Of a stretch of DNA of 20,164 nucleotides, positions 6,356 to 18,146 are shown one piece after another (the stretch's first letter is position 1; each line of letters opens with the position of its first letter). The position numbers and the translations under genes are program-made. This DNA comes from a virus: the IMG/VR virus record IMGVR_UViG_3300021959_000543, positions 1 to 20,164 of that record, one strand, 5' to 3'. The notes under the pieces were generated by a model. The model did not search any database and had not been told where the DNA came from. It worked only from the letters and a program-made list of their open reading frames with translations.

Positions 6356-6363
6356 TATTTTTG
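6356..6363 (+). promoter_or_regulatory. TAnnTTTG element giving a near-leaderless protease/capsid transcript
   Basis: TATTTTTG matches TAnnTTTG and ends only 4 nt before the protease ATG at 6368. With the usual distance from a -7 box to the start site, transcription would begin at or next to the start codon. No -33 TTTG is visible at standard spacing. The element could drive protease and capsid independently of the toxin-like gene upstream. Confidence 0.45.
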
Positions 6364-6367
6364 TATT

Positions 6368-7066
6368 ATGAATAAAATGATCTACAAGACTACTCAGCTG
6401 GGATCCGTTCTCGATGCTGATGAGAAAGCAGGTATCGTCAAAGGATATGCCTCTATCTTTGGGAACATGGATAGTGATGGCGACATCATCACCTCAGGTG
6501 CTTACAGCAAGACGATCAGAGAGAATAAGAGCCGAATCAAATATCTATATCAGCACGATATGAATAAGCCACTCGGAAAGATGAATGATCTGTATGAGGA
6601 TCAGAAAGGGCTTGTATTTGAGGCGGAGATCCCTAAGACTCAACTCGGAAAGGATGTGATCGAACTCATGAAGGCAGGAGTGATCACTGAGAATAGTGTT
6701 GGGATCCTACCTATTCAGAAACAAATGAAAGAGGGCTATCGTGAGATCTCAGAGGTAAAACTCTACGAGGTGTCTGCTGTTACACTGGCAGCTAACGATC
6801 AGGCCATGATATTAGATGTAAAAGGAAATGTGGATTTGAACAAGGTCACAGACCGCTATGATCGAATCGCACAACTAATCCGCAAAGGTGAGATATCTGA
6901 CGAGCTTGGATATGCACTGGAGGCGGAGATACAAAAGTTAAAGTCTTATTTCATTGACTACGCTACGATCACTCAGCCAACTGATATTGAGGTTACTGAG
7001 CCGATTGAAGTCAAAGCAGATGAGGCATTCGACCCGTTAAATTATTTATTAAAGAAAATCTCTTAA
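6368..7066 (+). CDS. Prohead maturation protease (HK97 / U35 family)
   Basis: 232 aa. The herpesvirus-assemblin-like serine protease fold is readable: VKGYASIFGNMDSDGD near the N-terminus, catalytic His63 in YLYQHD, catalytic Ser110 in ITENSVGI, and Glu134 in KLYEVSAVTLAAN as third-triad candidate. The enzyme removes the N-terminal scaffold (delta) segment of the capsid protein encoded next. Residues after about 155 are a less conserved helical tail (KVTDRYDRIAQLIRKGEI) that may act in scaffolding. The start is fixed by the first in-frame ATG; an alternative ATG three codons later (MIYKTTQ) would shorten it slightly. The gap to the capsid gene is 3 nt. Confidence 0.92.
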   Translation: MNKMIYKTTQLGSVLDADEKAGIVKGYASIFGNMDSDGDIITSGAYSKTIRENKSRIKYLYQHDMNKPLGKMNDLYEDQKGLVFEAEIPKTQLGKDVIELMKAGVITENSVGILPIQKQMKEGYREISEVKLYEVSAVTLAANDQAMILDVKGNVDLNKVTDRYDRIAQLIRKGEISDELGYALEAEIQKLKSYFIDYATITQPTDIEVTEPIEVKADEAFDPLNYLLKKIS

Positions 7067-7069
7067 AAA

Positions 7070-8278
7070 ATGAGTGATCAAATTAAAAACCAACTTGATC
7101 AGATCGCTGAGGTAATCGATGCCAAAATCGAAAAAGCCAATGGTCAAGTTTTAGAAAACGCTAAAGGACAAATCGATAGCGTACTTAAAGGTGAGGTAGT
7201 AAGCCTTACTGAAAAACACAGAGAGTTAAACGAGCGTTTTGATGCTATGGAGATGGCTTCTAAAAAAGCCTTTGAATCTAAAGCGCCTGTATCTCTAAAA
7301 TCAGCACTTGATCAGATGATCAACGAGGGTGCTATTGAAGAACTAAGAAAAGGAAACACAAGCCGTTCTACATTCCAAGTTAAAGCTGGCGATATGACTA
7401 TCGCTAACTCTTTTACTGGAGTTGTAGCTGCTGAGACTGTTGTACCTCAAATCAAATTCGATCCATCAAGAGCGGTACACATCCGTTCATTAATCCCTGT
7501 AGGATCTACTGATGCTAATGTAATCCGCTTCCCAAAAGAGTCGGCTTACGATGATGGCGCTGGTGTTGCTGCTGGTGGTACTGCTGTTGGACAATCTGAT
7601 TTTGACATCACTGCTACTTCAGTGAATGTTGAGAAATTGGGTACATTTATGAGAATCACTGAGGAGATGTTAAATGACACACCTCAGCTGACTGCTTATC
7701 TATCTGCTCGTGTTCCAAACAAAGTGCTTTCTGTAGAGGATAACCAAATCCTTAACGGAACTGGCGCATCTAACCAATTAGATGGTTTCTTTACTGCTGG
7801 TAATTCGGCTGCGTTTAACGCAACAACTGCTGGATTTGCTGATGCTGTAGAGGCTGCTAATGAGTACGATGTACTTGTAGCTGCTATGAACCAGTTGAAC
7901 CTATCAAACTATAGCGCTTCAACTATCTTATTGAACCCAACTGATCTACACAAGATCGTATTACTTAAATCAACTGCGAACGAGTACCTTCGTCAGCAAA
8001 TATATTCAGGACTACAGCCTACTATCATGGGAATCCCTGTAACTGTTAATACTGCTGTTACTGCTGGTGAGTTCTTAGTTGGTGATCTTGGTCAGGCTTC
8101 ACAGCTTTGGATTCGTGAGAATTTAGCTGTTGAGTTCTCTCGTGAGGATTCTACAAACTTCCGTGACTACTTCGTTACTGTTAGAGTTCAAGAGCGTCTT
8201 GCTCACTCTGTATATCAGCCAAACGCTGTGATCACTGGAGACTTTGCAACTGCTAAAGCTGCACTTGAGACCCCATAA
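7070..8278 (+). CDS. Major capsid protein (HK97 fold)
   Basis: 402 aa. Residues about 1-70 are a charged, coiled-coil-prone scaffold/delta domain (IAEVIDAKIEKANGQVLENA, LTEKHRELNERFDAMEM). The HK97-fold body starts around residue 100 and shows the expected segments: VPQIKFDPSRAVHIRSLIPVG, FDITATSVNVEKLGTFMRIT (E-loop and spine), VEDNQILNGTGASNQLDGF, ASTILLNPTDLHKIVLLK, and a C-terminal REDSTNFRDYFVTVRVQERL strand region. Codons shift toward T- and A-ending forms compared with neighbours, as expected for a highly expressed gene. It is preceded by TCTTAAAAAATG, an A-rich start context without Shine-Dalgarno. A strong terminator follows 20 nt after the stop, isolating the capsid transcript from the accessory genes. 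Confidence 0.93.
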   Translation: MSDQIKNQLDQIAEVIDAKIEKANGQVLENAKGQIDSVLKGEVVSLTEKHRELNERFDAMEMASKKAFESKAPVSLKSALDQMINEGAIEELRKGNTSRSTFQVKAGDMTIANSFTGVVAAETVVPQIKFDPSRAVHIRSLIPVGSTDANVIRFPKESAYDDGAGVAAGGTAVGQSDFDITATSVNVEKLGTFMRITEEMLNDTPQLTAYLSARVPNKVLSVEDNQILNGTGASNQLDGFFTAGNSAAFNATTAGFADAVEAANEYDVLVAAMNQLNLSNYSASTILLNPTDLHKIVLLKSTANEYLRQQIYSGLQPTIMGIPVTVNTAVTAGEFLVGDLGQASQLWIRENLAVEFSREDSTNFRDYFVTVRVQERLAHSVYQPNAVITGDFATAKAALETP

Positions 8279-8299
8279 GAAACAATAGTTTTCTGATAG

Positions 8300-8330
8300 A
8301 GAACCCTCGCTTCGGTGGGGGTTTCTTTTT
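8300..8330 (+). terminator. Rho-independent terminator after the capsid gene
   Basis: GAACCCTCGC, TTCG tetraloop, then GTGGGGGTTTC and TTTTT. The stem is stable with G-T wobbles and a UUCG-type loop. It separates capsid transcription from the accessory cassette. Confidence 0.85.
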
Positions 8331-8349
8331 GACCCCTATAGAAAAATTT

Positions 8350-8402
8350 TTTTCTGTTGTTAAAATTTATTTATATATTGCGGTATCAAAATAAATCAAA
8401 AC
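8350..8402 (+). promoter_or_regulatory. Accessory-cassette promoter-like element, copy 1
   Basis: A 53-nt AT-rich stretch (TTTTCTGTTGTTAAAATTTA, then TTTATATATTGCGGTATC and AAAATAAATCAAAAC) lies directly upstream of the ATG at 8404. It recurs at 9129-9180 with two substitutions and one single-base indel. TATATTG resembles a Bacteroidota -7 box lacking one T. Both copies follow a terminator and precede a gene, so promoter function is likely. The precise boxes are uncertain. Confidence 0.65.
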
Positions 8403-8403
8403 A

Positions 8404-8655
8404 ATGAGAGCAGTAAAAACTATCAAGATTGAAAAAGGATTCTACAGAGGCCAGTTTAAAGGCTATGGCTTTGGAATTATTTATAACGATGACCTTCAGG
8501 GTGATCTCTTATGGAGCATACACTTCGAGGATCAAAACTTCGGAGAGATGGTATTCTCAGAGGAAGATCAGCTATGGTCAACCAAAAAAGAAGCAGTGAG
8601 TATGGCTGCATTATTTATTGACAGATACTCTAACGATTATATAACTAAATACTAA
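8404..8655 (+). CDS. Small hypothetical phage protein (accessory cassette)
   Basis: 83 aa, family not recognised. It begins KTIKIEKGFYRGQFKGYGFGI, is rich in aromatic and acidic residues in the middle (LLWSIHFEDQNFGEMVF), and ends in a helix (TKKEAVSMAALFIDRY). It has no signal peptide or membrane segment, so it is probably a cytoplasmic strand-rich domain plus helix. It resembles the protein at 10280: both start with IKIxKG followed by an aromatic/basic strand, and both end with xxKxEAV helices, so the two may be distant paralogues. It is the first gene after promoter copy 1. A role in takeover of the host is guessed only from position. Confidence 0.7.
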   Translation: MRAVKTIKIEKGFYRGQFKGYGFGIIYNDDLQGDLLWSIHFEDQNFGEMVFSEEDQLWSTKKEAVSMAALFIDRYSNDYITKY

Positions 8656-8657
8656 TT

Positions 8658-8673
8658 AAAACGCAAAACAATG
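8658..8673 (+). promoter_or_regulatory. Shared translation-leader motif, copy 1
   Basis: AAAACGCAAAACAATG is identical at 9858-9873; a variant (AACGCAAAATTATG) precedes the ATG at 9189, and TCAAAACAATG precedes 8404. It is A-rich with no Shine-Dalgarno and probably sets efficient initiation or a common transcript 5' end. Confidence 0.5.
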
Positions 8674-9042
8674 AGCAGAAAAATTAACTACGCAGAGGGT
8701 GGATCAATCCAAAACAGAATCGCTGAGGCACAAGAAACAAAGCCTGTAGTGGGCGAAGGTGCAACAGAACTAATGTACACAGACAGACGAGCATACTTCG
8801 TGACCTATGTCAGCGAGGATGGAAAGGAGTGCAGGATTCAGAGAGCCAAGTACAAATGCTTAGACTACTACGCTGGGCGCTATCATGTAGAGCCTGATCC
8901 TGAGGGTGAGGAATTAACGCTGAGGTTCAGATATGGAAAATGGCGAGTTCGCTATCAGCACAGATGGACAGGAGAGAAGGGATGGGCGGTATTTAAAGTA
9001 GCCTTCGGATATGCGAGAGAATACGAAGATCCGCACTTCTGA
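8671..9042 (+). CDS. Hypothetical phage protein (accessory cassette)
   Basis: 123 aa, not recognised. The N-terminus is polar (INYAEGGSIQNRIAEAQE). The rest is rich in Tyr, Arg and Glu with probable beta strands (RRAYFVTYVSEDGKECRIQR, LTLRFRYGKWRVRYQHRW, WAVFKVAFGYAREY). Two cysteines (ECR, KCL) are too few for a metal site. It is preceded by the conserved leader and lies 15 nt after the previous stop, so the two share a transcript. A terminator follows within 20 nt. It is a cytoplasmic protein of unknown function; the strand-rich basic character is compatible with nucleic-acid binding, but nothing demonstrates this. Confidence 0.7.
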   Translation: MSRKINYAEGGSIQNRIAEAQETKPVVGEGATELMYTDRRAYFVTYVSEDGKECRIQRAKYKCLDYYAGRYHVEPDPEGEELTLRFRYGKWRVRYQHRWTGEKGWAVFKVAFGYAREYEDPHF

Positions 9043-9060
9043 TCAAAATCAAATCAAATC

Positions 9061-9085
9061 AAAGCCCCTGAAAAGGGGTTTTTTT
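9061..9085 (+). terminator. Rho-independent terminator
   Basis: AAAGCCCCT, GAAA loop, AGGGGTTT and a run of T. It closes the first accessory transcript (8404-9042). Confidence 0.85.
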
Positions 9086-9128
9086 ATTCCCAGTATTTAC
9101 AGACCTCAACAGAAAAAGTGAAAAAAAA

Positions 9129-9180
9129 TTTTCTGTAGTTAAAATTATTTATATATTGCGGTATCAAAATAAAACAAAAC
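9129..9180 (+). promoter_or_regulatory. Accessory-cassette promoter-like element, copy 2
   Basis: TTTTCTGTAGTTAAAATTAT, then TTATATATTGCGGTATC and AAAATAAAACAAAAC, nearly identical to 8350-8402. The TTG of copy 1 is TAG here, so that triplet is not an essential -33 box. The strictly shared core is TTATATATTGCGGTATCAAA. It lies between a terminator and the start at 9189. Confidence 0.65.
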
Positions 9181-9188
9181 GCAAAATT

Positions 9189-9563
9189 ATGTTTACTAAA
9201 GAGCAACTACTAAACGGAATTAAGAGATCAAGAAAACAGGCTGACAAGGCTTCTGACAAACGCTTAGAAATCAAGGCAAAACTGATCGCCTGTAGAACAG
9301 TGAGAGATGCTAATCGCCTGTCTAAACTTCAAGACAAGTGGGATGTTGAATACTACAAGGCGACTGACTCGATTGACCGCATGACTCGATTGATGATCGA
9401 TCAAGGATTCACAATGACTCGTGAGGAGGCTGGATCTATGATGATGAAGTCGGACAAGTCGATCAATATGAGAGGCGATGTGATGTTCGAGACCTTCAAG
9501 AGACCTCAGAACAGAAAGATGTTTTTCAAGGGATCAAAACTAATCGGGATCTATATATTCTAA
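9189..9563 (+). CDS. Basic hypothetical protein (accessory cassette)
   Basis: 124 aa from ATG 9189. A longer TTG-initiated reading from 9156 would begin inside the duplicated promoter element and is rejected. The protein is strongly basic and largely helical: FTKEQLLNGIKRSRKQADKA, RLEIKAKLIACR, RDANRLSKLQDKWDVEYYKA, then a Met-rich region (EEAGSMMMKSDKSINM) and a basic C-terminus (FKRPQNRKMFFKGSKL). This could suit a small DNA- or RNA-binding protein, but I recognise no family. It is the sole gene between promoter copy 2 and the hairpin at 9567, so its level may be set separately from its neighbours. Confidence 0.68.
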   Translation: MFTKEQLLNGIKRSRKQADKASDKRLEIKAKLIACRTVRDANRLSKLQDKWDVEYYKATDSIDRMTRLMIDQGFTMTREEAGSMMMKSDKSINMRGDVMFETFKRPQNRKMFFKGSKLIGIYIF

Positions 9564-9566
9564 TCA

Positions 9567-9595
9567 CAGCCCCTACGGGGGCTTTAAATCTTTTA
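9567..9595 (+). terminator. Hairpin terminator or attenuator
   Basis: AGCCCC, TACG loop, GGGGCT followed by TTAAATCTTTT. The stem is perfect but the T-run is interrupted, so it may terminate only partly. The next ATG is at 9598, just past it; read-through would feed the downstream genes. Confidence 0.7.
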
Positions 9596-9597
9596 TC

Positions 9598-9822
9598 ATG
9601 ACTATCAAGGACACTATCGCATTTATGAAGGCACTCACCCCTAACCTAAGCACCTCAACGCTTGAAATTGTTTTTACCAAGAATCACAGAAAGGCTCAAG
9701 ACGATTTTCATGTGGCTGAATCTATCACCGCAAAAGCTAACGCTCAGGTGATGTTCAAAGAACTCAGCAAACGCTACATAGATGAGGTTCGTGATATGGG
9801 CTTCAGAACTATCGTCAGATAA
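9598..9822 (+). CDS. Small hypothetical protein (accessory cassette)
   Basis: 74 aa, not recognised. The sequence is mixed helical and basic: MTIKDTIAFMKALTPNLSTS, VFTKNHRKAQDDFHVAESI, and a C-terminal KRYIDEVRDMGFRTIVR. It has no membrane segment or cysteines. The start lies only a few bases after the terminator-like hairpin, so there is no room for an independent promoter between them. Expression must come from read-through or from a start site inside the previous gene. Confidence 0.62.
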   Translation: MTIKDTIAFMKALTPNLSTSTLEIVFTKNHRKAQDDFHVAESITAKANAQVMFKELSKRYIDEVRDMGFRTIVR

Positions 9823-9847
9823 ACTGGGGATTTATCTATTCATTAAC

Positions 9848-9855
9848 TATATTTC
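9848..9855 (+). promoter_or_regulatory. Possible -7 element before the ATGA gene chain
   Basis: TATATTTC has one mismatch to TAnnTTTG and lies 15 nt before the ATG at 9871, with the conserved leader between. No -33 element is seen. Confidence 0.3.
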
Positions 9856-9857
9856 TA

Positions 9858-9873
9858 AAAACGCAAAACAATG
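9858..9873 (+). promoter_or_regulatory. Shared translation-leader motif, copy 2
   Basis: AAAACGCAAAACAATG, identical over 16 nt to 8658-8673 and ending in the start codon of the gene at 9871. Confidence 0.5.
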
Positions 9874-10149
9874 GCAAATTCAAACACCTCAATTAACGCT
9901 TTCGGTCACGAACTAAGACACGATGAGCAGTACAACGGATGGACTAACTACATCACATGGCGAATCTACTTAGAATGGTTCTCAGACAGAGAATCTCTAC
10001 ATGACGAATACAGGGATGGCGATAGCTTCCGATCTGAGATCGTCATGATGCTTCAGAGTGGGATCAATTACTTCCACTGGTTAGACCTCAACAGGATCAA
10101 TCACATCAACTGGGATGAGATCGCTGATGCTATGAATGACTCTCTATGA
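9871..10149 (+). CDS. GWTNYxTW-type small phage protein
   Basis: 92 aa. Residues about 21-33 read YNGWTNYITWRIY, the signature of a small family seen repeatedly in phage and environmental genomes (NGWTNYxTW); the family function is unknown to me. The remainder is acidic and helical (ESLHDEYRDGDSFRSEIVMM) and ends WDEIADAMNDSL. It is the first gene of a five-gene chain in which each start overlaps the preceding stop as ATGA. It also carries the shared AACGCAAAACAATG leader. Cytoplasmic; no transmembrane segment is seen. Confidence 0.75.
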   Translation: MANSNTSINAFGHELRHDEQYNGWTNYITWRIYLEWFSDRESLHDEYRDGDSFRSEIVMMLQSGINYFHWLDLNRINHINWDEIADAMNDSL

Positions 10150-10283
10150 GAATCAGGATAAAGCAGATCAAGGGCTTGACCAAGGATGGCAAGTACTTCT
10201 ATTATATATTCATTAATGATGACCGCCCAATCGTAAAACTCGGTTGGGATCGGGTCATCCTAAAACTAAAGCAACTACTATGA
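10146..10283 (+). CDS. 45-aa mini-protein in the ATGA-coupled chain
   Basis: The ORF ATG at 10146 overlaps the previous TGA (ATGA), and its own TGA at 10281-10283 overlaps the next ATG at 10280. The 45-residue product is basic and strand-like: MRIRIKQIKGLTKDGKYFYY, IFINDDRPIVKLGWDRVI, ending LKLKQLL. The double overlap argues that it is a real, translationally coupled gene rather than chance. No family is recognised. It may be a short beta-rich domain. Confidence 0.6.
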   Translation: MRIRIKQIKGLTKDGKYFYYIFINDDRPIVKLGWDRVILKLKQLL

Positions 10284-10495
10284 GTCACACACCGATCAAG
10301 ATCAGAAAGGGTGCAGGGAGGTACCTGTATCGCCTAAACTACAGAATGGATGTTTGGGATATGATGCGAAACCCTGAGACAAGGAAATGGGAGATATTCA
10401 ACAGGAGTGATCCTGATATGTATTGCCCGACATTTGACAGCAAATCAGAGGCGGTCAGATACATCGAGAGTCAAACCGATAAAAAGTTCAAATGA
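10280..10495 (+). CDS. Small hypothetical protein, possible paralogue of the 8404 product
   Basis: 71 aa from ATG 10280, chosen because it overlaps the preceding TGA by the same ATGA arrangement as its neighbours; a TTG-initiated version from 10244 would overlap the upstream gene by 40 nt. The sequence starts MSHTPIKIRKGAGRYLYRLN, has a Trp/Asp/Asn-rich middle (DVWDMMRNPETRKWEIF), and ends FDSKSEAVRYIESQ. The IKIxKG start and K-x-EAV end mirror the protein at 8404. It is a cytoplasmic protein of unknown role. Confidence 0.65.
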   Translation: MSHTPIKIRKGAGRYLYRLNYRMDVWDMMRNPETRKWEIFNRSDPDMYCPTFDSKSEAVRYIESQTDKKFK

Positions 10496-10629
10496 TGTGG
10501 TGGGATACTTTACCAAATAATCCAGCACTTTATGATCCTAAGGATTATAATCAGTGCGATGAATGTGGCGAGGAGACTAAGAAGCCATCCTCGAAGTGTT
10601 GGCACTGCGATAAAGAGTTTGACCTATGA
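10492..10629 (+). CDS. 45-aa zinc-ribbon mini-protein
   Basis: ATG at 10492 overlaps the previous TGA, and its TGA at 10627-10629 overlaps the next ATG at 10626. The 45-residue product has an N-terminal MMWWDTLPNNPALYDP and then two Cys pairs: CDECGEE (Cys22, Cys25) and CWHCDKEF (Cys36, Cys39). This is a CxxC-x10-CxxC treble-clef/zinc-ribbon spacing. Such mini-ribbons often bind nucleic acid or a host enzyme. The coupled position and intact metal site make this a convincing gene despite its size. Confidence 0.7.
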   Translation: MMWWDTLPNNPALYDPKDYNQCDECGEETKKPSSKCWHCDKEFDL

Positions 10630-10889
10630 TGACACCAAAACACAACACGGAGGCCTTAAATGTGTCTCAAATCCTCTCTGATGCGTATAACTACGGAGAG
10701 GCTTATATCAAGGGCGAAGGATTTTATTATAAGATCCGTGCATCGATGACTTATGAGGATTTCTGTGCATCGCTGGAACGAGTGGATCTCGAGACGATGG
10801 AGAAGAATCGCAACGATTTCAGGAATGTGATCACCTTCGAATACTCTATCTATCGGATAGTCAAAGAACTACAATATAAAAATGCTTAG
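10626..10889 (+). CDS. Hypothetical acidic protein ending the ATGA chain
   Basis: 87 aa, not recognised. The N-terminus is MMTPKHNTEALNVSQILSDA, followed by aromatic strands (YNYGEAYIKGEGFYYKIRAS) and helices (TYEDFCASLERVDLETMEKN, FEYSIYRIVKELQY). It looks soluble, with one Cys and no transmembrane segment. It is the last of five consecutive genes linked by ATGA overlaps, so its translation probably depends on ribosomes finishing the zinc-ribbon gene. A 9-nt gap separates it from the nuclease-like gene that follows. Confidence 0.65.
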   Translation: MMTPKHNTEALNVSQILSDAYNYGEAYIKGEGFYYKIRASMTYEDFCASLERVDLETMEKNRNDFRNVITFEYSIYRIVKELQYKNA

Positions 10890-10898
10890 CTTTATGTA

Positions 10899-11276
10899 GT
10901 GAACACTAACCAATTCGCCTGTCACGCAGAGTATTTATTTGCTGTGCGATGTATGGAACAAGGGTATCATGTATCGATGCCCTTGCTTGATTCCAGCGTT
11001 TACGATGTGATAGTCGATACAGGGAAGCGATTAGTAAAGGTGCAGATCAAGGCGACATATAAAGAGCCTACTGATAGAAAGAATAGCGTTCATGTATCAA
11101 TAGCGAGAATAAATGGTAGAGAATACAAAGTATCTGATATCGACTTCTTGGCTATCTACTCTCACTACTTCAAAGGATTTTTTGTGTTCAAGTACAATAA
11201 GATCATGAGCGCATTAAGACTAAACCCTGACGGTCTCCATAAATCTAAATTCAATAACTTTGACCTCGATCTTTAA
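10899..11276 (+). CDS. PD-(D/E)XK nuclease-like protein
   Basis: 125 aa starting at GTG 10899; no ATG in frame gives a full domain. The catalytic pattern of a small PD-(D/E)XK nuclease is present: Glu11 in CHAEYLFAVRCMEQGYHVS, Asp36 in SSVYDVIVD, and Gln49-x-Lys51 in VKVQIKAT. The E-A-helix, YDxxxD, VQIK order matches Holliday-junction-resolvase-like or recombination-associated endonuclease families. YKVSDIDFLAIYSHY would be the following strand/helix. It closes the accessory cassette and is followed by a strong terminator. It may trim or resolve phage DNA or cleave host or competitor DNA; the substrate cannot be told from sequence. Confidence 0.72.
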   Translation: MNTNQFACHAEYLFAVRCMEQGYHVSMPLLDSSVYDVIVDTGKRLVKVQIKATYKEPTDRKNSVHVSIARINGREYKVSDIDFLAIYSHYFKGFFVFKYNKIMSALRLNPDGLHKSKFNNFDLDL

Positions 11277-11302
11277 CGAGATTGTTTCTTCATTGTTTTG
11301 CT

Positions 11303-11338
11303 AAGGCGCTGCTCGGAAACGGGTGGCGCTTTTTTTTT
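11303..11338 (+). terminator. Rho-independent terminator closing the accessory cassette
   Basis: AAGGCGCTGCTC, loop GGAAAC, GGGTGGCGCTT, then eight T in total. The stem has one G bulge and three G-T pairs. The T-run merges into the TACCTTTG element of the next gene. Confidence 0.85.
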
Positions 11339-11345
11339 ACCTTTG
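11338..11345 (+). promoter_or_regulatory. -7 element upstream of the connector operon
   Basis: TACCTTTG matches TAnnTTTG, 17 nt before the ATG at 11363 and immediately after a terminator. Transcription must restart here if the hairpin works. No -33 TTTG is visible at normal spacing. Confidence 0.55.
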
Positions 11346-11362
11346 TTTCAAAGAATTTTCGT

Positions 11363-11905
11363 ATGGCAAACATGATCATAAATAGTGTAACTGGATCTGA
11401 AATTGTTACGCTACAATCCGCCAAGGATTACATCAGAGTAGAGACAACTGCTGACGACACACTGCTCGCCTCTATCGTATCGACTGCTCACTCTTGGTGT
11501 GAGAACTACCTCAGTAGAGATATAGTAGCAAAGAACAGAACTGTTTATTATAAGTCTGTTGATCAAGCGAGAACATACTCTCAGGAATATGATCAAGCCT
11601 TTATTCAATTACCCTTTGCACCAGTGGATAGTATTGTCTCTGTCACCTCTGAGGGATCAGCGGTAGATTATGAGATCAAGGGAGTAGGGAATGATCAGAT
11701 CCTACTCAGCCAATCACCAGCGAAGGATGTCAAGATAAACTACATAACAGAGGGGCTTACAGATCCTGAGATAAAGATGGCAATCCTCATGCTATCCTCT
11801 ACGCTATACGATAACAGATCAGAGTTCGTCACAGGTACAATAGTCTCATCTATTCCTATGGGGATCAGAACTATCCTTAATCCATTTAAATTCGTGTTCA
11901 TCTGA
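11363..11905 (+). CDS. Head-tail connector protein (gp6-like, Phage_connect_1)
   Basis: 180 aa from ATG 11363. The frame is open back to an ATG at 11282, but that would translate through the terminator and promoter, so it is rejected. VTLQSAKDYIRVETTADDTL followed by LASIVSTAHSWCENYLSR is the standard start of gp6-like connectors (HK97 gp6, SPP1 gp15). FIQLPFAPVDSIVSVT is the strand region, and GLTDPEIKMAILMLSSTLYDN is the C-terminal helix. It forms the ring below the portal. It overlaps the next gene by 1 nt (TGATG), beginning a tightly packed connector operon. Confidence 0.88.
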   Translation: MANMIINSVTGSEIVTLQSAKDYIRVETTADDTLLASIVSTAHSWCENYLSRDIVAKNRTVYYKSVDQARTYSQEYDQAFIQLPFAPVDSIVSVTSEGSAVDYEIKGVGNDQILLSQSPAKDVKINYITEGLTDPEIKMAILMLSSTLYDNRSEFVTGTIVSSIPMGIRTILNPFKFVFI

Positions 11906-12246
11906 TGGATGCGGGCAGACTAAATACAAGAGTTCAGGTGATCAGACAAACGAAAACACCTGATGGATATGGCGGGAACTTTGCTACAGAGACTGTTGTA
12001 AAGACTATCTGGGCGCAGAAAGTTGAGACCGCAGGAGATATTGGATTTGAGGATGGACAGAGGAGACACTATATCAAGAGCGAGTTTATCATCAGAAAAA
12101 AGACAGCTGAGAATATCCTCGATAATGATATCTTGAAGGTGGAGGGTGAGCCTCAACGATACAGATTTAACAATAAATTTGAGCATATTGATAATCAGTA
12201 TATTAAGATCATAGGTACTAAAATTGAGAAGGTATCATTCCGATGA
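11905..12246 (+). CDS. Head closure / head-tail adaptor (SPP1 gp16-like)
   Basis: 113 aa. The start MDAGRLNTRVQVIRQTKTPD is the diagnostic N-terminus of the Phage_H_T_join family, followed by GYGGNF, a strand TVVKTIWAQKVE, and SEFIIRKKTAENILDND. The C-terminus continues as beta strands (QYIKIIGTKIEKVS). This small beta-barrel plugs the connector after DNA packaging. The ATG shares a base with the connector stop (TGATG) and the gene overlaps the next by 4 nt, consistent with coupled, equimolar synthesis of connector parts. Confidence 0.87.
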   Translation: MDAGRLNTRVQVIRQTKTPDGYGGNFATETVVKTIWAQKVETAGDIGFEDGQRRHYIKSEFIIRKKTAENILDNDILKVEGEPQRYRFNNKFEHIDNQYIKIIGTKIEKVSFR

Positions 12247-12605
12247 GGTATTCGATTAAAATAAAGGATTCTGATCTGAATCAACTCAAGAGTAAAATAA
12301 AAGATCTCAAGGCTATCGATGAGCGTGGTCTATCGGGTGCGCTGAAGAAAGCAGCTAAGACTGCTGTGAATAATGCAAAGAGAAATGCGCCAGTGGATAC
12401 TGGGAAGCTGAGAGATAATATCGGATACGATACTGATCCGATGCAGAAAAGAGTTGAGGTATTCTCAAATGCTGAATACTCAGGATATGTAGAGTTCGGT
12501 ACGAGATTCCAAAATGCTCAGCCTTATTTCACACCAGCTGTGAGATTAGCTGTGAGAAACCTGAAGAAAGATCTTGAGCGTTTAATTAAAAAAGCAATAT
12601 CATGA
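12243..12605 (+). CDS. HK97 gp10-like tail completion protein
   Basis: 120 aa. An N-terminal helix (LNQLKSKIKDLKAIDE) and basic helix (LKKAAKTAVNNAKRNA) lead into PVDTGKLRDNI, the hallmark of HK97 gp10-like proteins. VFSNAEYSGYVEFGT and AQPYFTPAVR also match the family (VEFGT...PFLRPA-type motif). The ATG overlaps the previous stop by 4 nt (ATGA), and the stop overlaps the next start by 4 nt. The role is in joining or finishing the head-tail interface, and position agrees. Confidence 0.9.
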   Translation: MRYSIKIKDSDLNQLKSKIKDLKAIDERGLSGALKKAAKTAVNNAKRNAPVDTGKLRDNIGYDTDPMQKRVEVFSNAEYSGYVEFGTRFQNAQPYFTPAVRLAVRNLKKDLERLIKKAIS

Positions 12606-13192
12606 GAGATCCTCAGAAATATATACGCAAGGCGATAATAGACACGCTCACAGGAAATATCCCAACTGAGGCAGGTAATGTTCAGGGATTCGAGTGGAAG
12701 GATGTAGTTCTTGACTGGGCTGCCTATATAGAGCAATACAATAGAGTAGTAAGAGCGAGAGGATATAAACCAACGATATGGAGTGCGCAAACCTCAACAT
12801 GGGGCGATGCCTCATTCCGATACGCTGTATCACTTCCCATCTATCACAGGATTCCAAACGATGCGGTACTTCCATATATCCGAGTGTATTCTTTAGGATA
12901 CAATGAGATCGATCAGAACGCATCCCTCTACAACTTAGATTGTCGCACAAGAGTTGAGGTGATCAGTGCCTATTATGGAGACGATGGCGGGGAGACAGAG
13001 GTGAATGACATAGTTTCTAAAATCGTATTTTTGCTAAGGAAACGACAGGGTAATTATATTGACATTTCAGATTTTGGTTTTAATGTATATACGACAACGG
13101 TAGAGGGTGTTGATTATATCGAGATAGATGAGGCGGATAGTACATACTTTAAAGCAATCATTGAATTATCGACTCGTGTACAAAAAACTTAA
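12602..13192 (+). CDS. Probable tail terminator protein
   Basis: 196 aa. VLPYIRVYSLGYNE, followed by CRTRVEVISAYYG and a helical VNDIVSKIVFLLRKRQG, is the layout of tail-terminator/DUF3168-like proteins, which cap the tail tube and join it to the connector. An N-terminal insertion of about 80 residues (GFEWKDVVLDWAAYIEQYNR, WGDASFRYAVSLPIYH) makes it longer than the usual 120-150 aa. It is the last gene of the connector operon, linked by a 4-nt overlap to the gp10-like gene. The assignment rests on pattern and position. Confidence 0.6.
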   Translation: MRDPQKYIRKAIIDTLTGNIPTEAGNVQGFEWKDVVLDWAAYIEQYNRVVRARGYKPTIWSAQTSTWGDASFRYAVSLPIYHRIPNDAVLPYIRVYSLGYNEIDQNASLYNLDCRTRVEVISAYYGDDGGETEVNDIVSKIVFLLRKRQGNYIDISDFGFNVYTTTVEGVDYIEIDEADSTYFKAIIELSTRVQKT

Positions 13193-13193
13193 A

Positions 13194-13346
13194 ATGGAAG
13201 AACTTAAATTTTATCTATTGCCTTTATTCGGAGTTAGTGTTTCTATGCTAAAGATGCTTAACCCATACATGGAGTTTGGAGTTTTGTTTTTATCAATCAT
13301 TTCAGTTCTTCTAAAAATTTATTGGGATTATAAAAAGAATAGATGA
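13194..13346 (+). CDS. Small membrane protein, holin-like
   Basis: 50 aa from ATG 13194, one base after the preceding TAA; a longer frame from 13128 overlaps the tail-terminator gene and is rejected. Two hydrophobic stretches are apparent (FYLLPLFGVSVSML and FGVLFLSIISVLLKIYW), ending in a basic tail YKKNR. This is typical of a small class II holin or antiholin. Its stop overlaps the next ATG (ATGA), and the next genes encode a spanin-like protein, an M15 peptidase and a 3TM holin, so lysis function is likely. Which of the two membrane proteins times lysis cannot be told. Confidence 0.6.
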   Translation: MEELKFYLLPLFGVSVSMLKMLNPYMEFGVLFLSIISVLLKIYWDYKKNR

Positions 13347-13621
13347 CCACCCCTAAGATAAATGATGAAAGCACTTTATCGATCAATATTAAATGGCTCA
13401 TTCAGATTGTTATTTTGGTCGGCAGTGCGGTATATCTTTACCTTGGGATTGACAATAGGGTGCGGGCGAACGAAGAAGAACTCAAAAGCCTCAGGTACAA
13501 CCAAAACACCTATATTTTTCCCGACATTCGAGTATTGGAATCAGAAGTGATCGAGTATAAATTAGAGCGGGAGAGAATAAGAAAAGAAATACAGCGCCTG
13601 AACGAAATCGTAAAGAGATAA
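13343..13621 (+). CDS. Membrane-anchored coiled-coil protein, i-spanin-like
   Basis: 92 aa. A polar N-terminus (TTPKINDESTLSIN) is followed by one transmembrane helix (residues about 19-36, IQIVILVGSAVYLYLGI) and then a charged coiled coil (VRANEEELKSLRYN, ESEVIEYKLERERIRKEI, ending QRLNEIVKR). A single N-terminal transmembrane segment with a periplasmic coiled coil is the plan of inner-membrane spanins. No lipoprotein o-spanin is visible nearby in this strand. It overlaps neighbours on both sides (ATGA at its start, TAATG at its end), so it belongs to the lysis operon. Alternative: a generic phage membrane accessory protein. Confidence 0.55.
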   Translation: MTTPKINDESTLSINIKWLIQIVILVGSAVYLYLGIDNRVRANEEELKSLRYNQNTYIFPDIRVLESEVIEYKLERERIRKEIQRLNEIVKR

Positions 13622-13989
13622 TGAAGTACTTTAAATACTACGAGTTTGATTCTCCTGATGTAGATGGATCAGGTCAGATGATGGATTCTGATTTCTTGAT
13701 GATGCTCGAGGCTGCTCGTGAGATCTATGGACAGCCTATGAGAATCACCTCAGGTTTTCGCACAGAAAACTATAATGAGGAGTTAAAGAAAAGAGGGTAT
13801 AAAGCATCATCTAAATCGAGCCACTTAAAAGGATTGGCTGCTGATATAGAATGCACCAATAGCACAGACAGATATAATTTATTAGACTCGTTGATCAAGG
13901 CGGGATTTAATCGTATAGGGATAGCTGATACATTTATCCATGTGGATAATGATTTAGATAAAGCGCCCTTCTTAATATGGACTTATTGA
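13621..13989 (+). CDS. Endolysin, M15-family peptidase (D-Ala-D-Ala/L-Ala-D-Glu type)
   Basis: 122 aa, a single M15A-type catalytic domain with no cell-wall binding domain. Motifs: ITSGFRTENYN (42-52), SSHLKGLAADI (66-76) with zinc ligands His68 and Asp75, and FIHVDND (105-111) with His107 as third ligand and Asp109 beside it. It cleaves peptidoglycan stem peptides to release progeny. It has no signal peptide, so export depends on a holin, and holin-like genes flank it on both sides. The ATG shares a base with the preceding TAA (TAATG). Confidence 0.9.
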   Translation: MKYFKYYEFDSPDVDGSGQMMDSDFLMMLEAAREIYGQPMRITSGFRTENYNEELKKRGYKASSKSSHLKGLAADIECTNSTDRYNLLDSLIKAGFNRIGIADTFIHVDNDLDKAPFLIWTY

Positions 13990-13990
13990 T

Positions 13991-14371
13991 ATGCTAAAAT
14001 TACTACTTCAATTACTCACAGGAAAAAAAGGAGAGTCAAGCGCTGTGGGTGTTCTCGCTAAGGACATCAGAGAGGCGATCAAAGGAAAAGAACTCGATCC
14101 TGAGAAACTGATAGAACTACAAACAAAAATAAATGAGTCAGAGGCTCAGCACAGATCTGTATTCGTTGCAGGATGGAGACCTTTTATAGGATGGGTTTGT
14201 GGTATATCACTGGCTTATAATTTCGTTCTTAGGGATTTAATTATTTTTGTTGTTGGGAATGACTTTGTGCCACCAGCACTTCAGATGGATCACCTGATGA
14301 CTGTTCTGATGGGAATGCTCGGATTAGGCGCTTTCAGGACTTATGAGAAAATAAAAAATGTATCTAAATAA
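13991..14371 (+). CDS. Holin of the 3TM superfamily (GTA_holin_3TM)
   Basis: 126 aa. A hydrophilic N-terminal half (VLAKDIREAIKGKELDPEKL, IELQTKINESEAQHRSVF) leads to VAGWRPFIGWVCGISLAYNF, the signature of GTA_holin_3TM proteins. Two further hydrophobic segments follow (LRDLIIFVVGN, MTVLMGMLGLGAF), and the ending FRTYEKIKN is also family-typical. It forms membrane lesions that release the M15 endolysin encoded just upstream. Starts 1 nt after the endolysin stop. With the 50-aa membrane protein at 13194 there are two holin-like genes in one cassette. Confidence 0.85.
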   Translation: MLKLLLQLLTGKKGESSAVGVLAKDIREAIKGKELDPEKLIELQTKINESEAQHRSVFVAGWRPFIGWVCGISLAYNFVLRDLIIFVVGNDFVPPALQMDHLMTVLMGMLGLGAFRTYEKIKNVSK

Positions 14372-14378
14372 AAAATAA

Positions 14379-17300
14379 ATGGGATTAGATTTAAACACCG
14401 CACTGATTAGTGACACCTTCGATGGGCTGATTAAGACACAGGATGGAAACGTTCTAACAGACTCACCACTACCAATAGGAGATGGTCGGGGGAATGATTC
14501 ATCTTTAGCGATTGCAACAGCTGGTAATGGTGTGACTATCACTGGAACTTTATTAGTAGATGGCGCAAATATTGGAACTGGTCTATCTACCGCTCAGGCA
14601 GATATCACAGCTATTGAGACCAAGACTGATTTTATTACAATCACAGGCGCTGTCAATTTAGATACTATAAAGACTAAATCAGATTATATCAGCGTAACTC
14701 AAGCAGTTGATTTGGATGCGATGGAGACTAAAACCAACTTCATCACTATCACTCAGGCTGTTAATTTAGACACTGTTGAGTCAAACGCTGCTGCTGCTAA
14801 AGCTAAAACTGATTACTTGACTGTTACCCAAGCAGTCGATTTAGATACATTAGAGAGTGACATGGTAGTAGCTAAGGCTGACATTACAGCCATCGAAGCT
14901 AAGACTGACTATATCACTATATCAAGCAACTTAAACCTCAACACAGTTGCCTCAAATGCCTCGAGTGCTAAGACTAAAACTGATTTTATTACAATCACTC
15001 AGGCGGTTGATCTCGATACTGTTGAGAGTGATCTCAGTCAAGCGCAAACGGATATCAATCTCATTGAGGCGAAAACCAATAATATCACGGTTACTCAAGC
15101 GGTAAACCTTGATACAATGGAATCGGATATCGCCACTAATAACGCTAAGAATAGCTACCCAGCTGCGGATGCCACTAAGGTTGGCTTTATCAGCGTTACA
15201 CAAGCCGTTGATCTTGATTCGATGGAAACAGACATCTCGAATCTATCGAGCAACAAATACGACAAAACAGGCGGTACTATTTCAGGAAACGTAACTGTTA
15301 CAGGTGATCTAACCGTAAACGGTACCACTACCACTGTAAACACGCAGACTTTATCGGTAGAAGATCCGCTTATTGAATTGGCAAACCAAAATAGCGCCAA
15401 TAGCGTTGATACTGGATTTTATGCGAATTACAGCTTAGATGCTGGGGTTACTACTAAGTATGCTGGTTTATTCAAAGATGCTGGCGATTCAGATAAATTC
15501 AAACTATTCAAAGGCTTAGAAGTTGAGCCGACTACCACAGTAAATACTGCTGGAACTGGATATACAAAAGGAGATTTAGTTGTTGGCGATTTAGATGCGG
15601 TAACCATTAGCGGAAACCTTACAGGAAACGTCAGCGGTAACTTAACGGGAACAGTTTTAACTGCTGCTCAAACAAACATTACAAGTGTAGGTACGTTATC
15701 GAGTCTTGCGGTTGGTGGAGATATAAATGTATCAAATACAAGCGGTGCTTATCTTTCAATTGACACGGATTCTGCTGCTGCTAATGCAGGAATTAGACTT
15801 AGCGAAAGTTCTACTCCTACAACAAATGGCGCTGAATTAGTTTATGATGGCTCTACAAATAAATTTCATATTAAAACAGGAGCTGCGAGCTTTACCGAAA
15901 GATTAACTATTGAAAGAGATAATGGTAACGTAGGTATAGGTACTTCGAGTCCTGCAAAAGAATTAGAAGTGTATGGTGATGCGCCTACAATAAGAATATC
16001 AGGAAACGGTCTTTCAGGTGGCAATAATTTTGGTTCTTTAGAATTTTACAACTATGATGGCTCAAGTGATGGTCCTAATGTAGCTGCTGCGGTTAGAGCA
16101 CTTGCTCGAAACGCTAATGGTTCAGGTGGACATTTAACATTTGAAACTTCAGTAGGAAATGCAGGTGAGGGAGTTCCTGCTACTGAAAAAATGCGCATAG
16201 ATGGAGAGGGTAACGTAGGGATAAATACGGACAATCCGCAACAGTTGCTTCAAGTTACAGGAAACCCTGCTATGTTTAGGTTAGAGTGTTCTGATACTAC
16301 TCTTGATGTAAATCAAGTATTAGGAGGTGTTGAAGTGTATAGTAATGATGCTAATGGAGTTGGTGTTGGAGTTAAAACATCTATTAAAACTATTTCTGAA
16401 AATACTTCAGGTTCTTTAATAGGAATGGCTTTCTCTACTACTGAAAATACAGGTAGTAATGAGGTAGAGCGTATGCGTATTGATGCTTATGGTAATGTAG
16501 GGATAGGAACTTCGAGTCCTTTAGCTAAAACTCACATAAAGTCAGGTGATTCAGGGTTTGCGGGTTCTTTAGGAACAAACTATGATGATTTAGCTGTTGA
16601 AGGTAGTGGAAATACAGGAATCACAATACTGACACCGAACAACAATAATGCGGGTATTGCCTTCGCTGATGAGGATTCTGAATTGCAGGGATTGATACTA
16701 TATTCTCACGGTTCTGATTTTATGGCTTTTAGAACCGCAGCACAAGAACGTCTGCGCATTGACTCAAGTGGTAATTTAGGTCTTGGAACTTCAAGTCCTG
16801 ACACACTTCTTCATTTAGCTAAAAACATAGAACCTGAATTAAAATTTGAAGCAACAGACATTGGTGTTGATGCAGGACAATCTCTTGGTACAATCTCTTG
16901 GTATGCTAATGACTCTTCAGCAGGAGGTGTTGGAGAAAGAGCATTTATATCATCTGTTGCCGAAAACGCAGGAACGCAGTATAGTCTTATTTTTGGAACA
17001 GGAAGCGGTGTTGATGCGACAGAAAAAATGCGCCTTGCGGATGATGGTTATTTAAGATTAGCAGGTGCGGGTATTCAATTCAACGGTGATACTGATTCTT
17101 CCAATGCGTTAGATGATTACGAAGAAGGAAACTTTGACCCCATTATTGCAGATGCTGCATCAGGTGGTAATGAAGCTACTACTTTTTCCACTTACGCTTC
17201 TTACACAAAAGTTGGAAGGCTTTGTACATTAACAATGGCTTTCACTAATATAGATACAACGGGACTGACTGCGGGTAATAATATATTTATTACAGGTCTT

Positions 17301-17528
17301 CCGTTTGAGATGGGTAATATTTCGGGAACTCAGTTTGCAATAGGAAATGTAGAACCTTCTGCACTTACATTTAGCGGAAATGTATCATTAAGACTTCAAG
17401 ACAGCACTCAATATATTAGAATTTATAATTCAGTAAGCGGAACTAATGCAGTACCATTAGATATAGCAGATATTACAAGTGGAACTTGTGATTTAAGAAT
17501 GACAATAACATATCATACAACGACATAA
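14379..17528 (+). CDS. Modular tail fibre / receptor-binding protein
   Basis: 1049 aa. Residues 85-280 hold eight copies of an ITITQAVNLD-like strand motif separated by short helical AKTKTDF spacers. Residues about 295-350 contain VTGDLTVNGTTTTVNTQTLS and VEDPLIELANQNS, a module common in marine-phage structural proteins. Residues about 500-890 carry four strong and one degenerate GNVGIGTSSP-type repeats (residues 516, 611, 705, 798 and about 890), each preceded by an MRID-like strand. The C-terminus starts at LDDYEEGNF (911) and is a beta-rich head with YTKVGRLCTLTMAF, probably the receptor-binding tip. GATC disappears from 15367 onward and codons become T/A-rich, so the distal half looks imported. 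Placement before the major tail gene is unusual. Confidence 0.85.
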   Translation: MGLDLNTALISDTFDGLIKTQDGNVLTDSPLPIGDGRGNDSSLAIATAGNGVTITGTLLVDGANIGTGLSTAQADITAIETKTDFITITGAVNLDTIKTKSDYISVTQAVDLDAMETKTNFITITQAVNLDTVESNAAAAKAKTDYLTVTQAVDLDTLESDMVVAKADITAIEAKTDYITISSNLNLNTVASNASSAKTKTDFITITQAVDLDTVESDLSQAQTDINLIEAKTNNITVTQAVNLDTMESDIATNNAKNSYPAADATKVGFISVTQAVDLDSMETDISNLSSNKYDKTGGTISGNVTVTGDLTVNGTTTTVNTQTLSVEDPLIELANQNSANSVDTGFYANYSLDAGVTTKYAGLFKDAGDSDKFKLFKGLEVEPTTTVNTAGTGYTKGDLVVGDLDAVTISGNLTGNVSGNLTGTVLTAAQTNITSVGTLSSLAVGGDINVSNTSGAYLSIDTDSAAANAGIRLSESSTPTTNGAELVYDGSTNKFHIKTGAASFTERLTIERDNGNVGIGTSSPAKELEVYGDAPTIRISGNGLSGGNNFGSLEFYNYDGSSDGPNVAAAVRALARNANGSGGHLTFETSVGNAGEGVPATEKMRIDGEGNVGINTDNPQQLLQVTGNPAMFRLECSDTTLDVNQVLGGVEVYSNDANGVGVGVKTSIKTISENTSGSLIGMAFSTTENTGSNEVERMRIDAYGNVGIGTSSPLAKTHIKSGDSGFAGSLGTNYDDLAVEGSGNTGITILTPNNNNAGIAFADEDSELQGLILYSHGSDFMAFRTAAQERLRIDSSGNLGLGTSSPDTLLHLAKNIEPELKFEATDIGVDAGQSLGTISWYANDSSAGGVGERAFISSVAENAGTQYSLIFGTGSGVDATEKMRLADDGYLRLAGAGIQFNGDTDSSNALDDYEEGNFDPIIADAASGGNEATTFSTYASYTKVGRLCTLTMAFTNIDTTGLTAGNNIFITGLPFEMGNISGTQFAIGNVEPSALTFSGNVSLRLQDSTQYIRIYNSVSGTNAVPLDIADITSGTCDLRMTITYHTTT
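14631..15218 (+). repeat. Eight tandem ITxTQAVxLD repeats in the fibre stalk
   Basis: FITITGAVNLD, YISVTQAVDLD, FITITQAVNLD, YLTVTQAVDLD, YITISSNLNLN, FITITQAVDLD, NITVTQAVNLD, FISVTQAVDLD, with unequal spacers of KTD/ESD-type residues. The copies differ in DNA but keep the strand pattern, which suggests a trimeric beta/coiled stalk. Confidence 0.85.
15924..17048 (+). repeat. Long-period GNVGIGTSSP repeats in the fibre
   Basis: GGT-AAC/AAT-GTA-GGx starts at 15924, 16209, 16491 and 16770, with a degenerate DGYLRLAG copy at 17046. The spacing is 95, 94, 93 and 92 codons. Each repeat follows a (K/R)MRID-type strand. Confidence 0.8.
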
Positions 17529-17538
17529 ATAAATAAAA

Positions 17539-17811
17539 ATGGCACTATCAAAACAAAGAGTACAAGACAAAATCGAAATCGTAGGTAAATTCAAAGCGAT
17601 TCAGATTCGTTACGCTGACCAAATCGTAGAAGATGGCAACGTTATTTCTCAAAGCTACCATAGAGATATGGTTTCTTGCGGTGATTACGCAAAAGCAGAT
17701 GAGCATAACGTAAAAGCAATCGCAGATGCGGTTTGGACTGCTGATTTAATCGCAGAATACGAAGCAAGCATTGCGCAACCTATTTCTGAAGAACCAGTAG
17801 CAGCTGAGTAA
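17539..17811 (+). CDS. Hypothetical protein downstream of the fibre
   Basis: 90 aa, not recognised by name. ALSKQRVQDKIEIVGKFKAI, IQIRYADQIVEDGNVISQS and YHRDMVSCGDYAK form a short alpha/beta sequence, with the C-terminus a helix and a Glu/Pro/Ala tail (ISEEPVAAE). The pattern of a small gene directly after a fibre is frequent in marine phages, where it may be a fibre accessory or chaperone, but this is inference. It lies wholly inside the GATC-free block, so it probably travelled with the fibre. It is preceded by TAAATAAATAAAAATG, and its stop shares a base with the next ATG (TAATG). Confidence 0.68.
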   Translation: MALSKQRVQDKIEIVGKFKAIQIRYADQIVEDGNVISQSYHRDMVSCGDYAKADEHNVKAIADAVWTADLIAEYEASIAQPISEEPVAAE

Positions 17812-18146
17812 TGACGTTCACTTGGATAATATCGGAACTAAAGGCGCTGGCTTATGATGAGCAGAGCGGTTTGGAAAATGTTATCCGAAGCGTAAAGTGG
17901 CATTATAAGGGCGAAGCTGGTGATCATACGCACACGCTTTCAGGCGATCTTAATTTAGAAGCGCCAAGTGATGAGCAGTTTATCCCATGGGATATGATTA
18001 AAAGCGATCCGAATATCGTGATTACATGGCTCGAGGCTGGTTTGGATGTAGATGCTTTACAGGCGAACATTCAAAAAGTGATTGAGATAAAAGCACAGCC
18101 TAAGGAGATCAGCTTGTATCTGGATCAACCAGCGCCAGCGGAATAA
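17811..18146 (+). CDS. Hypothetical protein, fibre-associated small gene
   Basis: 111 aa. MTFTWIISELKALAYDEQSG is followed by LENVIRSVKWHYKGEAGDHT, HTLSGDLNLEAPSDEQFIPW, a central helix (NIVITWLEAGLDVDALQ), and a C-terminal QPAPAE tail like that of the preceding gene. I recognise the general type (GLENVIxxVxWxY near a fibre gene in environmental phages) but no function. No transmembrane segment is seen. GATC reappears at 17922 within this gene, marking the right edge of the GATC-free block. Confidence 0.66.
   Translation: MTFTWIISELKALAYDEQSGLENVIRSVKWHYKGEAGDHTHTLSGDLNLEAPSDEQFIPWDMIKSDPNIVITWLEAGLDVDALQANIQKVIEIKAQPKEISLYLDQPAPAE

Follow-up and report, generated by a model that had tools for sequence, protein, structure and literature searches.

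Why should a phage genome rich in GATC contain a stretch of about 2.5 kb from which this word is missing, and is that stretch of foreign origin? The window analysed here is the entire record of an uncultivated virus (IMGVR_UViG_3300021959_000543, 20164 bases), a contig that represents a genome fragment and whose genes, all of them late, are those for the packaging, capsid, and tail of a tailed phage. GATC was found 195 times along the window, and not once between 15363 and 17922, exactly as the first-pass annotation had described. The next longest gap measured 721 bases, and from the density in the rest of the window about 25–28 sites would be expected in this block (15367–17921), which also lacks CATG, CTAG, and CCGG and contains eight ACGT sites. 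The gap spans the distal two thirds of a tail fibre gene (14379–17528, plus strand; 1049 aa, with matches to tail fibre PHROGs, E 2.5e-30), the small gene that follows it (17539–17811, plus strand; 90 aa, phrog_6228), and the first third of the DUF7936 gene. The fibre has a repeat-rich stalk as its N-terminal third, in common with the related contig L102, and varies in its C-terminal half. Among cultured phages, a DNA search revealed no near relative of the window, and a search of bacterial genomes with the MCP profile, aimed at prophages and hosts, gave distant matches only (30–32% identity). The comparison contigs used below are designated by L numbers, and many of them are fragments.

A second palindrome, ACGT, marks the same region in the opposite sense. 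The ten ACGT sites in the window are all located between 14449 and 17817, and a segment scan based on this word alone placed the cluster at 14401–17880, with a log-likelihood ratio of 17.6 against a maximum of 7.5 in 300 random placements; thus, the foreign signature does not depend on GATC. The scan carried out with eleven other palindromes, GATC excluded, delimited a similar segment at 14161–17880 (29.3 versus 21.0). In the codon-based test, the observed and expected ACGT counts were 5/5.1 in the distal fibre, 2/2.3 in the small gene (7/7.4 for both together), and 2/1.2 in the proximal fibre, against a single site in the other genes, where 30 were expected; outside the fibre gene, the small gene, and the first codons of the DUF7936 gene, no ACGT was found in any gene tested. 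GATC behaved in the opposite way, with 177 sites versus 119 expected in the other genes of the main gene set and 181 versus 122 in a wider ORF set. Both words deviated between cassette and backbone, with p values of 3e-5 for GATC and 9e-7 for ACGT (uncorrected), so the compositional difference between module and backbone goes beyond what amino acids and codons account for. Moreover, the fingerprint of 16 palindromes in the block was far better described by the backbone of L107/L108 (log-likelihood of about −28) than by its own backbone (−50).

When 53 loci were screened with seven palindromes, only ten locus–word pairs departed (p < 0.005, uncorrected) from the backbone to which they belong, the window being second in strength only to contig L131. 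The latter is a mirror case, in which GATC is absent from the backbone (0 observed, 27.4 expected) and present in the cassette (8 versus 7.5; p 5e-10, uncorrected). Regarding the limits of the foreign segment in the window, the start of the gap at 15367 agrees with the first-pass annotation, but the signature defined by ACGT begins further left, at about 14400; the left boundary of the import is uncertain, because the proximal fibre can be aligned with L102 by DNA but carries two ACGT sites.

The parentage of the different genes was then compared. The nearest backbone relative spanning the fibre region is a single contig, of which L004, L102, and L128 are overlapping pieces; its major proteins are close to those of the window (89% protein identity for the MCP and 91% for the tail tube). 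In the MCP tree, the window grouped with L002, L003, and L004 with a support of 100/100, and its capsid and tail genes in general sided with these contigs. At the DNA level, the longer stretches aligned with L102/L128 at 71–80% identity from 6356 to 15971, including 71–77% within the fibre gene up to the latter position; beyond it there was no long alignment until 17525, where similarity resumed. In contrast to this backbone affinity, the small gene was 92.5% identical over 245 bp to that of L098 and only 68% to the L102-type contig. This 92.5% level was found in L098–L101, phages with otherwise different genes, which besides the fibre and the small gene share with the window only the gene at 13343, plus a short gp6 stretch in L099. 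Accordingly, in the small-gene tree a grouping of the window with L004 was rejected (AU test, p 0.0002 for protein and 0.0003 for DNA), and in the tip tree a grouping with L102 was rejected as well (p 0.009), L102 pairing instead with L126 (99/99). The sister groups of the window in both trees were weakly supported, and the nearest tip found had about 42% protein identity at best, with no near-identical donor among the contigs compared. Therefore, the tip and the small gene are not congruent with the backbone, and, together with the ACGT contrast and the residual GATC deficit considered below, this supports the import proposed in the first-pass annotation as regards these two pieces; its term "recent" is to be taken in a relative sense, as the nearest copy of the small gene differs by 7.5% in DNA and the nearest tip is as distant as indicated above.

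Three conserved stretches, each with DNA shared with phages of other backbones, could have acted as recombination anchors. The left one (15253–15600, plus strand) is a conserved fibre segment with about 75% DNA identity to L124, L105, L106, and L115, whose backbones are different. The second (17070–17140, plus strand) corresponds to the conserved start of the tip domain, with the motif NALDDYEEG and 80–88% DNA identity across phages, and the third (17525–17780) extends over most of the small gene. The alignments place the right junction at 17767–17820, where the similarity to L098 stops and the L102-type backbone, with the DUF7936 gene, resumes.

The tail fibre PHROGs and the fold of the tip place the module in the C-terminal part of the fibre, predicted to bind the receptor. 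The putative tip domain (17073–17525, plus strand) was modelled as an all-beta head (AlphaFold2, pLDDT 92), whose predicted fold resembles the C-terminal domain of the Dettilon tailspike gp208 (PDB 6f7d; Z 14.3) and Noumeavirus NMV_189 (7qrr; Z 15.0), despite a sequence identity to these of only 14–17%. Both its position and this modelled fold suggest a receptor-binding role. The small gene adjoins the 3' end of the fibre gene in many related contigs, and its relatives are found in cyanophages, pelagiphages, and a roseophage. Its product was also predicted to be folded, with good confidence (pLDDT 90), but the search of PDB folds gave no convincing match (best Z 4.0) and that of BFVD only uncharacterised viral proteins; as these matches were uninformative, a chaperone role is not claimed for it. 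As a check for a diversity-generating retroelement in this window of late genes, direct repeats (30 nt or longer) were inspected in the fibre and small genes, and they corresponded to stalk and motif repeats.

The same gene pair lacks GATC over long distances in other phages, with gaps of 2400 bases in L102, 3061 in L098, 3109 in L100, 2606 in L103, and 4131 in L106. Since relatives carry the gap at this very gene pair, a shared pool of cassettes accounts for it better than a one-off event in this phage, and, given the gap of L102, the gap alone provides no date for the import into the window phage. Over 11 related cassettes, the most depleted 4-mers among those with an expectation above 8 were CATG (0 observed, 25 expected), CCGG (0/18), CTAG (4/64), GGCC (1/10), GATC (6/54), and CGCG (4/22), and these six lowest ratios all correspond to palindromes. 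To describe the donor as merely free of GATC enrichment, as had been done, is therefore an understatement, as such cassettes actively avoid GATC, CATG, CTAG, and CCGG. A depletion of this kind is the pattern that would be expected of restriction-site avoidance.

Taking these results together, the GATC gap is most probably an exchanged fibre tip and small gene that has not yet been adjusted to the restriction-shaped word usage of its new genome. The tip and the small gene following it would constitute a cassette exchanged between phages, the source of which would be a pool of related marine phages in whose hosts GATC, CATG, CTAG, and CCGG are probably targets of restriction, so that the cassette would have lost these four words. 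The backbone of the window, GATC-rich and nearly devoid of ACGT, would have been shaped elsewhere, likely also by restriction enzymes. Once the window phage had separated from the L102 lineage, the GATC-avoiding tip and small gene would have replaced the resident copy, probably through homologous recombination, and the cassette, unadjusted so far, would appear as a GATC gap that retains ACGT sites.

A different reading of the same depleted words deserves some attention, but we regard it as rather unlikely. According to it, a pool of fibre-tip genes circulates among unrelated marine phages and is filtered by every host through which it passes, so that it would gather the avoidance of the union of all these words (GATC, CATG, CTAG, CCGG, GGCC, and CGCG) whatever the backbone in which it is found.

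Less probable still is that no import took place and that the gap arises from the amino acids and codon usage of the fibre, with few ATC and G-ending codons and few Asp-Leu, Asp-Gln, or Asp-Pro pairs, as a trait of this class of proteins. The codon shift invoked in the first-pass annotation is real, with a GC3 of 0.20 in the distal fibre versus 0.43 in the rest; of the 42 isoleucine codons in the former, only 2 are ATC, compared with 122 of 213 across the ten backbone genes counted, and codons ending in G make up 9%, against 24% in these ten genes. However, the fibres of most near relatives show the same low-GC3 shift, so the preference for T/A endings is typical of such fibres and was rejected as a sign of import, which is in favour of a class trait. 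The significance of the gap varies with the null model, because the choice of the latter changes the expectation: the block should contain 8.8 GATC sites by base composition and 6.0 by a Markov model of order 2 built within it, and synonymous resampling of the distal fibre gave 8.1 under the codon usage of the rest and 5.1 when its own codons were shuffled (P about 0.001 for the latter). Compared with the figure of about 28 obtained by density, the expectation is reduced to about 5–8, and most of the apparent deficit is due to amino-acid and codon make-up. Nevertheless, the absence is still beyond chance: with 1.6 further sites expected in the small gene by synonymous shuffle, the distal fibre and the small gene should have about 6.7 and have none, a residue that codon make-up leaves unexplained, in a region chosen after the fact and with nominal p values weakened by the repeated motifs of the fibre, as the shuffles treat codons as independent. 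In addition, GATC is not excluded from this class of fibres, since the fibres of the GATC-rich phages L076 and L113, taken as controls, exceed the expectation (32 versus 16.1 and 17 versus 11.6), the former with a GC3 of 0.21; ACGT runs in the opposite direction, and the trees conflict. The estimate of the first-pass annotation for the surroundings was corrected as well: TerL (1274–2455) contains the 21 GATC sites claimed, but its own codons predict 12.6, a ratio of about 1.7 rather than four times chance. Across the window genes outside 14379–17811, GATC is about 1.5-fold above the codon-usage expectation.

That the contig is an assembly chimera, with two phages joined inside conserved fibre and small-gene sequences, seems very unlikely. 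It would fit an uncultivated metagenomic contig of 20 kb in which conserved sequence that also occurs in other phages lies close to either end of the block; however, the fibre is a single intact frame of 1049 aa, the gene order is that of L102, none of the contigs compared was identical to either side, and several independent contigs show a similar contrast between cassette and backbone. Finally, selection against GATC within the host-recognition cassette, by which it would escape MutH nicking or Dam-directed mismatch repair and diversify faster, would fit the scarcity or absence of the word there in at least seven related contigs and the toxicity of MutH to unmethylated GATC phage DNA (reported in literature cited by PMC4687349), but it is highly improbable, as CATG, CTAG, and CCGG, irrelevant to MutH, are at least as depleted and other cassettes are at or above the expected GATC (21/14.2 in L113, 8/7.5 in L131, and 13/9.4 in L190).

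Mosaic tail fibres are a known phenomenon in phages, and the exchange favoured here, of a fibre tip with its small gene, is a clear new example of it, made easy to see by the mismatch of fingerprints. In marine phages, metaviromic islands and variable host-recognition modules were described by read recruitment (Mizuno et al. 2014, PMC3909814); as in those, the C-terminal, receptor-binding end of the fibre is variable and the N-terminal part conserved, but here the module was recognised from its word fingerprint and from gene phylogenies, and the tip is accompanied by a small gene. Avoidance of restriction-modification sites has also been described in phage genomes (Rusinov et al. 2018, PMC6286503), in cases where the host codes for the corresponding enzymes. 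Our cassettes show a similarly strong depletion of short palindromes, including GATC; however, that analysis was made per genome, whereas here the avoidance fingerprint of one segment differs from that of the rest. A genome-wide over-representation of GATC, the cause of which was left unexplained, was reported for mycobacteriophage subcluster B3 (PMC4841201), which is similar to the window in that a single phage lineage is enriched, and different in that here one cassette of 2.5 kb escapes the enrichment, in uncultivated and probably marine viruses. A search of the literature gave no directly matching precedent for the use of restriction-site fingerprints to trace phage genes of foreign origin. 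A contrast between palindrome fingerprints within a single phage genome can serve to recognise exchanged host-recognition cassettes and can give a hint of the restriction systems of former hosts, with no need of culture or of a known host; among the contigs examined, the window and the mirror contig L131 are the clearest cases.

Some other observations were made along the way. The phages sharing the MCP (L002–L081) differ sharply in their missing and abundant 4-bp palindromes; per 10 kb, L043 has 0 GATC and 53 CTAG, L031 has 45 CCGG and 0 CTAG, and L060, L073, L075, and L076 have 123–140 GATC and 0 ACGT. The last four, as well as the unrelated L113, combine GATC excess with ACGT absence as the window does. 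A search for Dam-type methylases (PF02086) in 19 relatives gave only two matches below the cut-off, most likely cross-matches, because they lie inside or overlap PF01555 matches. N6_N4_Mtase (PF01555) itself was present in L005, L009, L020, and L031, none of which is GATC-rich. Around GATC, the search for a longer Chi-like motif detected no dominant 6- or 7-mer, with GTGATC, TGATCA, and GATCAC modestly enriched. On the coding strand of the window (1–20164), CTCC occurs 3 times and GGAG 91 times, a strong strand asymmetry, and the genes outside the fibre module contain 2 CTCC versus 29 expected. The best MCP match, in L079 (3968–5175; 97%), spans a number of bases not divisible by three and sits on a long branch of the tree, which suggests a frame disruption or a sequencing error in that contig. 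Finally, the gene at 13343–13621 (92 aa) may be another exchanged gene, as it is 76–83% identical to counterparts in L098–L101, L121, and L122 and yet has no match in L102.
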